Made by a program: the position numbers and the translations under genes. Below, piece by piece: positions 3,201 to 6,200 of a stretch of 44,387 nucleotides of DNA (its first letter is position 1; each line of letters begins with the position of its first letter). The notes beneath the pieces were generated by a model that worked only from the letters and a program-made list of their open reading frames with translations, did not search any database and was not told the origin of the DNA. Source of the DNA: a virus; IMG/VR virus record IMGVR_UViG_3300021599_000029, positions 1 to 44,387 of that record; one strand, 5' to 3'.

Positions 3201-6200
3201 GCAGTCGCCCGCCAGCGTTGAGTAGGGTAGCGCGCAGACCTTGTGCACGGTCGTGGATATCGTAAGCCTGCCGGATCGGTGCGCGCTCACCGGCTTCCGG
3301 TGCAGCACTGAGCTTCTCAGCTTCAATGACAAGGTCCCGTGTCGGCAGCCGGAAGAGCTGCATACGCAGGTTAGCGTAGTCAGCATTCCGCCAGAAGTTC
3401 TCAAATGCCCTCCGGATGAAGCCGCTCTTGTCCTTGACCTCATGTTCAGCGAAGGACTCACTCAGCGGGGGGAGCAGCCCACTACCTGAGAGCGACTGTT
3501 CCGTAGCCAGCTGAGCACGGTAACCAGCCATTTTCTCTTCGATCTTGCGGTTGGCTTCGGCGACCTCTTCCTCGGTCTTTACTCGCCGCTTACCAGTGCG
3601 GCGACCTGCTCCCAGCTTTCCGCTTGGTTCACTAGCGCCAGCAGCGGCTGGTACAGCTTCACCCCCTCGCGGTCCCCCTCCTGCCTGCTCAGACCTAGCC
3701 GCGTTCGGACCGCCATCTGGAGTTCTTCGAGAGGCTGATCTTGAGGACTCTTCCTTGCCGACATCCTCAAGAGACTTAGCAACGTTCTGCGTTGTTGATC
3801 GTCCATATTCATCCCTCATAGCGGTAAAGACGGACTCGTGCCTTATCAGCGTGTCCATGATAGCGTCACGGAAGTAGTCAAGCATCCCCTCATCAGCGAG
3901 GAACTGCTCAACCCTGACCATGTTAGAGTTGTGGCCGACACCATGCTGCATATCGCCCGTGTGTGCGATCTCGTGGATCATGGTGTTGAGGATCGTAGCG
4001 CGGACCCCGGCTAGGGTACGAGAACCCCAGTCATAGAACGGGTTAATCAGGACCGCCTTGTATGGGACCTTTATGTGTAGGCCACCGTACTGTTTATCCA
4101 CGCCGATACCGGCGTAGAACATGTTCTCGGGTGCAAGGGTATCATACCCCCACATCCCGCTCTTAGCGAGCAGCTCCTTCATCTCAACGAGCACGGAGCC
4201 CAGCTCTGCGAAAAACAGTGCGGGTTCGCCATAAGGCGCACCGACCTCAATAGGGTCGAAGCTGGTATTGTTGTGGAAGATCGGATTGCGAGGGTCTTGG
4301 TCGAGCTCCATCATGAAGTCGTCGCGCGTAGGTGCCGCCTCGTCCGCTTCAAACGACGACTCGCGTTTTTTCTCCGCCTCCTTAGACTCGTCAACTACCG
4401 TGCGACCCTCCATATCGAACACGCCACGGTCGTTTATCTGCACGTCGATGGGTAGGGGTGGTAGCTCCCGTGTTGGGGCTCCCTCTTCACGGTCAAACGA
4501 CTTCTTAAGTTTACCTTCAAGCCCCTTGAGGTCTTCGCCCGCTTCCACACGAGGGAGGGACACAACGTTCTGCATCGTCTCCTTAAGGTCAGCGGCTTCA
4601 GCACCCCGTGCTATCTTAGCCAGATACGCACCTAGGGATTTAACGTCCTTGTCCAGCCTGCGCTTGAACCGCTCCCGACTGTTCTCAAACGGGTAGTCTG
4701 GGTGTTTGGCATCGACGTTGGGCTTCACGTCTACAACGATGTCGTAAGGAATCTGCTCCGACATATCGAGCATGAACCGTTCGTTGAACTGATATACTCC
4801 GCTAGAGAGCACTTGGTGGCGTGGGTACCGACTACGAGCCTTACCGTAGTAGATATCAGCAGTGCCCCAGTCGAAACGCGCAGTGAGCTTCTGGTAGCTA
4901 TCGAACGGGAAGTTGATCCCAAGTGGCAGCGTTTCGGTGGTCGTGTCGCCCCAACGGTCCTTCGCAGTAACAGTTATCTCAACAGGGCCGACCAGAGGCT
5001 CGTTAAGGATACCTACACTGCTCGCCCCGCTGGGGAACCAGATACGACGTTGGTCGCCAGTTTTCGGGTCGGTATACGTCTCGGGGATTTTGACCGTTAC
5101 GGTCGTACCGTGCTCTCCCTTAGGGGCCGGGCTTTTGTTGATCTTGAACTCGCTACCCGCGATCTCCTTACTGGTTGCATCGACTGTGACGCGTACCCCA
5201 TCGCGTACCGTGTCTAGCTTAAGCCAGTCAGCCCCCATCATGAAGCCCATCTTGGCAAGCCCAAGACCCCCACTGCGTTCAGAAGGATCAAGGTCAGACT
5301 TGTCTGAACCTGCCACCGTGAAGAAAGCATCGCGCACGATCTCGGGAGTCATCCCCCGTGCGTTGTCCTTGACGGTTATAGTACGAGCCTCTGCGTCAAT
5401 AGAGACCTCAACATTACCGTGCTTGTAGAGCGAAGGGGCCTTACGTCCCGACACCGCACCTTTGACAGCGTCGAACGCGTTCTGCAGCAGCTCCTTAACC
5501 GAGACCTCAGCGATGTTAGAGGCATACATGTTAGCCCCGAGCAACTGGATAAGCCCCGCCATGTCGGCGTTCAGCTGCCCCTGCTCTTCACCAAACTTTG
5601 TACTCTGGTCTGCCGACTTACTCGACGTTGAGGCTGTATCCGGACGTGAGACAAGCTGCAGGCTGTTCTTAGGTATACGGTGGTATGCCTTGGGGTTCTT
5701 GGCGCTGTCTGGGTGAAAGCGCACGTAGTCGCCATCGAGTCCTACGACCGTACCCTTAGAGGTACCCGCACTCACACGGTCCCCGACCATGAAGTCTTCT
5801 ACGATCCCGGTAGCTACGTTGTCGATGGTGCTGTTAAGGGCAGACGACTCGTTATCCGGGTCACCCTCAGGCGCGACCATATCGGGTGCAGGTGCCGACA
5901 CAGTAACAGGTGACGACGCGAAGAGGTCTAGTGAATTGAGGACATCCTGCGGAGAGTAGCGGACCTCACGACCTTCGAGCATAGCATCATAGGCCATGCG
6001 GATACGGTTGCTAAGAATAGTAGCGGCGTTTTCGTCGATCTCGCCCGACTCCAACGCAGAGGCGATCTCCTCTTCGACGGCATCATAGCTCAACTCATCG
6101 TCTTCAGGCTCAGGCTCAGGCTCAGGCTCAGGCTCAGCCTGCTGCTCCGGCTCCGGCGCTTCCGGCTGACCACCCTCCTCCAGTAGACGGTCGATCTCGG

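Follow-up and report, generated by a model that had tools for sequence, protein, structure and literature searches.

A phage polypeptide of 2758 amino acids, encoded in a 44,387-base IMG/VR virus record (here called the window, the whole of the DNA analyzed), carries a GHKL-type ATPase and its S5/transducer domain followed by a zincin-like HExxH metalloprotease domain, and these parts form a fixed module within a protein that otherwise differs from relative to relative. Judged by sequence and structural model, the predicted catalytic residues are invariant, the linkage of the two halves is constant, and the setting is that of a polyvalent protein. We tentatively favor the interpretation that the module is a protease gated by ATP, that the polyvalent protein around it is injected, and that the module would most likely process the giant protein itself. 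The features of the giant ORF and its upstream neighbors are as follows.

298..8574, minus strand: giant polyvalent-type ORF, 2758 aa, GTG start; contains the ATPase-protease module and closes the structural cassette
8467..8574, minus strand: N-terminal stretch, residues 1-36; resembles EVC08_011 of Rhizobium phage RHph_N65
5647..5796, minus strand: small all-beta domain, residues 927-976; opens the conserved module (alignments and strands in the AF2 model)
5077..5562, minus strand: GHKL (Bergerat-fold) ATP-binding domain, residues 1005-1166 (Pfam, PDB sequence matches, AF2 and fold search)
5479..5493, minus strand: N-box ELLQN, with Glu1028 (expected general base) and Asn1032 (expected Mg2+ ligand)
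5353..5367, minus strand: DNARG (D-x-G/A-x-G), with Asp1070 (expected adenine contact) and Gly1074
5251..5271, minus strand: lid motif GGLGLAK, residues 1102-1108; invariant Lys1092 lies just ahead
4576..5052, minus strand: S5/transducer, residues 1175-1333; VIA-align matches to GyrB and Hsp90 reach model residue ~397-401, that is, residue ~1325
4336..4575, minus strand: partly disordered linker from ATPase to protease, residues 1334-1413; pLDDT <50 at model residues 436-476, that is, residues 1362-1402
3757..4335, minus strand: zincin-like metalloprotease domain, residues 1414-1606, weakly WLM/YgjP/SprT-like
3961..3975, minus strand: HEIAH, predicted catalytic HExxH, residues 1534-1538; third ligand candidate His1544
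361..2667, minus strand: C-terminal PLxRFG domain, residues 1970-2738; NF032893, 194.8 bits (cut-off 100)
8567..9958, minus strand: upstream ORF, 463 aa; 8-base overlap with the start of the giant gene
9962..11005, minus strand: DNA ejection protein-like gene of the same cassette; phrog_4287, E 2.9e-9

An earlier note on this DNA had reported three GHKL signatures in the 2758-aa ORF and had taken them for a complete ATP-binding domain, and both statements were confirmed. Scores exceeded the Pfam cut-offs for HATPase_c (31.2 bits against 26.4, over residues 1026-1165) and HATPase_c_3 (27.4 bits against 25), and the nearest solved structures by sequence were HtpG for a single-sequence query (E 9.6e-7) and TRAP1/HtpG for a 44-sequence profile (E 5.5e-13). 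The homolog alignment comprises 44 sequences and extends down to ~20% identity. Asn1032, Asp1070, Gly1074, Lys1092, Gly1102, Gly1105, Ala1107, Lys1108, Gly1156, and Arg1300 are identical in all 44, and Glu1028 is glutamate in 43, the exception (L103) being misaligned around a loop insert with its KELLQN box intact. Asn1032 and Asp1070, which the earlier note had singled out for a check of the nucleotide site, are thus both invariant, and neither of the findings that the note said would overturn its reading was made; the predicted placement of the two residues, like the geometry of the ATP pocket in general, is derived from the alignment and not from model coordinates. Arg1300, which lies in the motif YPFxNSRE, is a candidate ATP-sensing residue.

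The fold itself was examined in an AF2 model built with the 44 diverse sequences (mean pLDDT 80.5, pTM 0.62), which supersedes a poor earlier model built with 6 close sequences (pLDDT 50.8). Foldseek matched the model to HtpG, GRP94, Hsp90, and GyrB, and VIA-align 2 gave a Z score of 20.0 to GyrB (279 residues, 3.5 Å) and 19.5 to Hsp90 (291 residues, 3.9 Å), the Z scores to GyrB, ParE, Hsp90, and TopoVI-B all being about 18-20. The GyrB and Hsp90 matches span the GHKL domain and the S5/transducer together (about residues 1005-1325) and cover about 280 residues, as expected of a Bergerat fold. We conclude from sequence and predicted structure that residues 1005-1166 are a complete GHKL ATP-binding domain with an S5/transducer after it. 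The extent given in the earlier note is thus refined to residues 1005-1166 for the GHKL domain and ~1175-1333 for the S5/transducer; that note overlooked the protease half (residues 1414-1606) and the singular conservation of the module.

The HExxH domain starts ~80 residues past the transducer. In the AF2 model, its secondary structure runs helix, three strands, helix with the HExxH, helix, which is the order given for polyvalent MPTases by Iyer et al. (PMC5512222). His1534, Glu1535, and His1538 are present in 44/44 homologs, and position 1544, the last of HExxHx5[H/E], is His in 36, Glu in 7, and Lys in 1. In the four most distant rows (L122-L125), tblastn matched GHKL and S5 only, and the end of the domain was placed by the single downstream HExxH; because the domain end was chosen from that HExxH, the HExxH count in these rows is not independent, whereas the spacing test described below is. 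Profile matches of the protease were marginal, short, and centered on the HExxH helix: the best protease match of the protease sub-alignment in the PDB was Wss1p (E 0.013), Pfam WLM matched 7 of 22 members (best 8.9e-5), and YgjP-like matches were seen in 6. The window's own protease sequence matched Zincin_1 only (0.051, below cut-off), and PF18818 (MPTase-PolyVal) did not match the protease domain even at E 10. The protease was assigned chiefly by the HExxH and the predicted secondary structure. The PDB fold search was dominated by the ATPase half, and its lack of protease matches carries no weight. The invariant motif gives good support to the assignment of residues 1414-1606 as a zincin protease, whereas the family placement (WLM/Wss1/SprT likeness) is weakly supported. 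In many carriers (e.g. L013, L020, L022, L092, and L095), another HExxH (LHEVVHAAT is one example) lies ~290-510 residues past the first, which suggests a second metallopeptidase domain in those proteins.

The two halves are constantly linked. An HExxH lies 438-587 residues past the N-box in 57/57 giants with a scorable N-box (six giants whose N-box deviates from the search pattern were left out of this count), where an HExxH would be expected at a rate of 6% per 300 residues if one goes by its frequency in the other parts of these giants, and of 0.2% if one goes by composition. At 23 further loci, the N-box pattern was found in 19, all 19 with an HExxH. The earlier note had suggested ATP-dependent remodelling in the infected cell; this is still plausible but incomplete, since the ATPase is coupled to a putative zinc metalloprotease in every scorable homolog, and the likely output is therefore ATP-controlled proteolysis and not remodelling alone.

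Alignment with relatives further revealed that strong conservation within the giant is confined to the module (~685 aa, residues ~927-1611): identity is about 40-88% per 50-residue bin over residues ~901-1600 and ~20% elsewhere. The small all-beta domain at its start is found in near relatives too. Among close carriers, the module is 56-75% identical and the flanks hardly align. For TerL, a comparison of eight close carriers with the window gave 66-74% identity. Within the close phage group, the module is, as judged from these alignments, conserved about as strongly as TerL, whereas its neighbors in the same protein are not. Recent mobility of the module among close relatives was considered and dropped, TerL on the same contigs being equally conserved. 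With regard to TerL, we note that the 815-aa frame of L029 (G009:C1:14823-17159) has an in-frame insert that matches Intein_splicing (PF14890, E 8.1e-17) and is a terminase intein, and that the TerL of L032 (G010:C1:34404-36836) has an in-frame insert of ~317 aa after residue ~91, for which a PF14890 search was negative.

Closed carrier ORFs are at least 1689 aa long, with one later exception, L142 (4891-13165), in which the giant is split into three adjacent ORFs of 899, 812, and 970 aa. The module is the 812-aa middle ORF, and the 970-aa ORF is akin to C-terminal parts of other giants; the split is either natural gene fission or the product of two assembly frameshifts. Two other candidates were set aside: L043, as a free-standing two-gene version, was unusable because a run of N separates the halves, and L045, as a module member, is an ordinary HtpG-like protein.

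IMG/VR scans returned 35 loci at 56-71% identity, then 65 loci, and then 199 relatives, of which the best 80 were kept and correspond to 78 loci, down to ~22% identity. When 50,697 GenBank phages were searched by tblastn, the queries being the window module and four distant modules, no homolog appeared, only short generic matches; among plasmids, a search turned up a single generic ATP-binding protein. Among 369 bacterial genomes of one class, the module was present only in the MAG holding L043, on a 9.8-kb contig that also encodes ribonucleotide reductase and DNA ligase. The 22 more distant carrier records gave one TerL match (L100, 67%), and at least two of them have another TerL type; the module has likely spread beyond one phage group, to judge from these sequences, although many of the 22 records may be fragments. 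Ranked by TerL identity, the named phages closest to the window are Pelagibacter phage HTVC027P, phage 023Pt_psg01, and phage DSL-LC04 at about 57%, followed by Synechococcus phage MinM2 at 49%, and the module is absent from all four. HTVC027P has a 1342-aa "putative structural protein" near the end of its structural genes. MinM2 (L061:15886-24297) has a 2803-aa "RelA/SpoT" protein after tail-type genes, a different giant with other cargo.

The earlier description of the protein as virion-associated and presumably ejected draws its support from context. The giant closes the structural cassette, a DNA-ejection-protein relative lies two genes upstream, and the C-terminal region is DarB-like in addition to carrying the PLxRFG domain. 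Residues 203-564 weakly match the virion RNA polymerase family (E 1.5e-5). At the N terminus, 25 residues are 80% identical to EVC08_011, which in RHph_N65 is encoded directly after a "putative injection protein"; this stretch is a possible virion/ejection tag. The generality of such an ejection tag was dropped, as a 36-aa N-terminal query yielded a single convincing match. In distant carriers, ART-PolyVal, LPD1, LPD5, LPD22, LPD38, ddrB-ParB, RadC, InPase, MutS_I, and SLT domains occur in the same polypeptide. Elsewhere in the window, positions 27148-29229 (minus strand), part of the head-tail cassette, contain an SU10-adaptor-like gene (44.1 bits against a cut-off of 27) together with a gene for a virion structural protein, and a glycosyltransferase-like gene (32010-32747, minus strand; Glyco_transf_21 barely above cut-off) lies near the major head protein gene. 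A PADLOC run reported nothing.

The single ORF combines ATPase, HExxH protease-like, and PLxRFG domains in 2758 aa, that is, disparate activities in one multi-domain protein, and by its sequence architecture it belongs with the polyvalent proteins of Iyer et al. (PMC5512222). It shares with them the giant multi-domain layout, the zincin HExxH, the PLxRFG/DarB-like C terminus, and, in relatives, the LPD, ART-PolyVal, ddrB-ParB, and RadC domains; it differs in that the main text of that work names no GHKL, Hsp90, gyrase, or HATPase domain. With the GHKL-S5 ATPases (GyrB, MutL, MORC, TopoVI-B, and Hsp90), the module shares the Bergerat fold, N-box, DxGxG, glycine-rich lid, GT motif, and transducer, but the C-terminal partner recognized in it is a predicted metalloprotease, the HExxH domain; Pfam recognized no nuclease or Toprim partner in the giant, and profiles recognized no chaperone dimerization domain. 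Sequence likeness to HtpG/Hsp90 covers the ATP domain (hhalign 96.7% over 154 columns) and ends there; profile matches stop at residue ~1165, and a protease domain follows. Membership in the Hsp90/HtpG family was rejected at the equivalog cut-offs, which the scores missed about tenfold (NF003555, 33.5 bits versus 371; NF010683, 42.3 versus 455). The Wss1/WLM, SprT, and YgjP metalloproteases share the HExxHx5H active-site pattern and the weak profile matches, but no fusion of them to a GHKL ATPase was found in the literature searched. A viral giant, BFVD A0A516L4L2_1, was matched over the whole module (TMq 0.68, 663 columns, 26% identity, E 3.4e-46). The full-text literature that we searched, outside which lie most subscription journals and preprints, held no description of a GHKL-metalloprotease fusion, and within that literature the pairing is undescribed.

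How might such a module work? The giant probably travels in the virion alongside the phage DNA and enters the host with it, and the GHKL domain would be the motor of a fixed GHKL-S5 transducer-metalloprotease module. On ATP binding, the GHKL/S5 clamp would close in the way known for gyrase, MutL, and Hsp90, and the clamp movement may present or activate the metalloprotease that is tethered after the clamp. In most cases the substrate would most likely be the giant itself, with cleavage of linkers, timed after entry into the host, freeing the variable effector domains. GHKL-S5 units of topoisomerases and MutL make ATP-driven changes in protein interactions, with the catalytic domain either C-terminal or in trans (PMC2292703); Iyer et al. 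have proposed that polyvalent proteins are processed by zincin MPTases, either ahead of injection or following it (PMC5512222); and SPRTN, of the broader Wss1 group, self-cleaves on activation by DNA (PMC5127644). A module that stays constant as the cargo around it changes would suit a general task, for example the processing of the giant itself, and self-cleavage that releases effectors would explain why the module stays the same and its neighbors change. The main objection to ATP-gated cleavage after entry is that the producing cell is ATP-rich too: because ATP alone cannot tell the two cells apart, an extra cue, such as dimerization, DNA, or tail passage, would be needed. Further, N4 vRNAP carries an MPTase and yet is packaged unprocessed, which counts against the favored reading. 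The MPTases in PMC5512222, which are without a GHKL partner, count against it as well, as do the weak profile matches of the protease domain. A broader formulation, which we regard as rather doubtful, is that of an undescribed kind of ATP-gated protease delivered by the virion, in which the GHKL/S5 engine would drive a metalloprotease in place of a nuclease or chaperone and which would serve as the shared activation device of many different injected effectors.

Of the competing explanations, the one that survives best, which we consider unlikely, is that the GHKL/S5 part closes round incoming DNA, as in MutL and gyrase, and that a WLM/SprT-like protease strips off the bound proteins. These could be restriction or nucleoid proteins or phage pilot proteins, comparable with the action of Wss1/SPRTN on DNA-protein crosslinks. 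GyrB as the top VIA-align match, the Wss1p and WLM matches of the protease, and the DNA-directed domains of relatives (ddrB-ParB, RadC, and MutS_I) all point this way, but Hsp90 matches the model as strongly as GyrB, the protease matches are weak and centered on the HExxH helix, and the module has no constant DNA-binding domain. A different timing, which we hold to be distinctly unlikely, is that cleavage of the giant by the protease already takes place in the producing cell, either ahead of packaging or in the course of it, with the ATPase controlling the step. This has been proposed for P1 DdrB, whose processing precedes packaging (PMC5512222); the producing cell has ATP in abundance, and L142 has the module as a separate 812-aa ORF. 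The L142 split, however, may be an assembly frameshift, and the module is surrounded by predicted injected effectors.

That an Hsp90-like engine refolds the giant after its passage through the narrow tail, with the protease acting independently, we find improbable: HtpG/TRAP1 are indeed the closest solved structures by sequence, but the HtpG and HSP90-family equivalog cut-offs were failed by a wide measure (see above), no Hsp90 C-terminal dimerization domain was recognized in the giant by profile, and a protease accompanies the ATPase in all scorable giants. An rIIA-like counter-defense role, in which the GHKL protein blocks a host exclusion system and has a different C-terminal half, is very improbable: rIIA does belong to the GHKL proteins of phages (PMC7824862), some distant members are matched by RIIA PHROG profiles, and RIIA models appear at about 1e-10 in the viral fold search, but membership with T4 rIIA was rejected (hhalign probability 20.5%, 112 columns, the GHKL core alone), and topoisomerases and Hsp90 match equally well or better.

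Our favored, tentative reading thus remains that of an ATP-gated protease carried in an injected polyvalent protein. The module appears common in uncultured phages (the 199 relatives of one IMG/VR scan) and absent from the 50,697 GenBank phages, and because it was not found in the latter it is not covered by the experimental models now in use. Polyvalent proteins are regarded as polypeptides that bring several effectors into the host by injection, and a constant ATPase-protease core in these hypervariable giants is a concrete candidate for the step that releases or activates their parts. If this is true, a protease would be added to the outputs of the GHKL/S5 engine, which is familiar from gyrase, MutL, MORC, and Hsp90.
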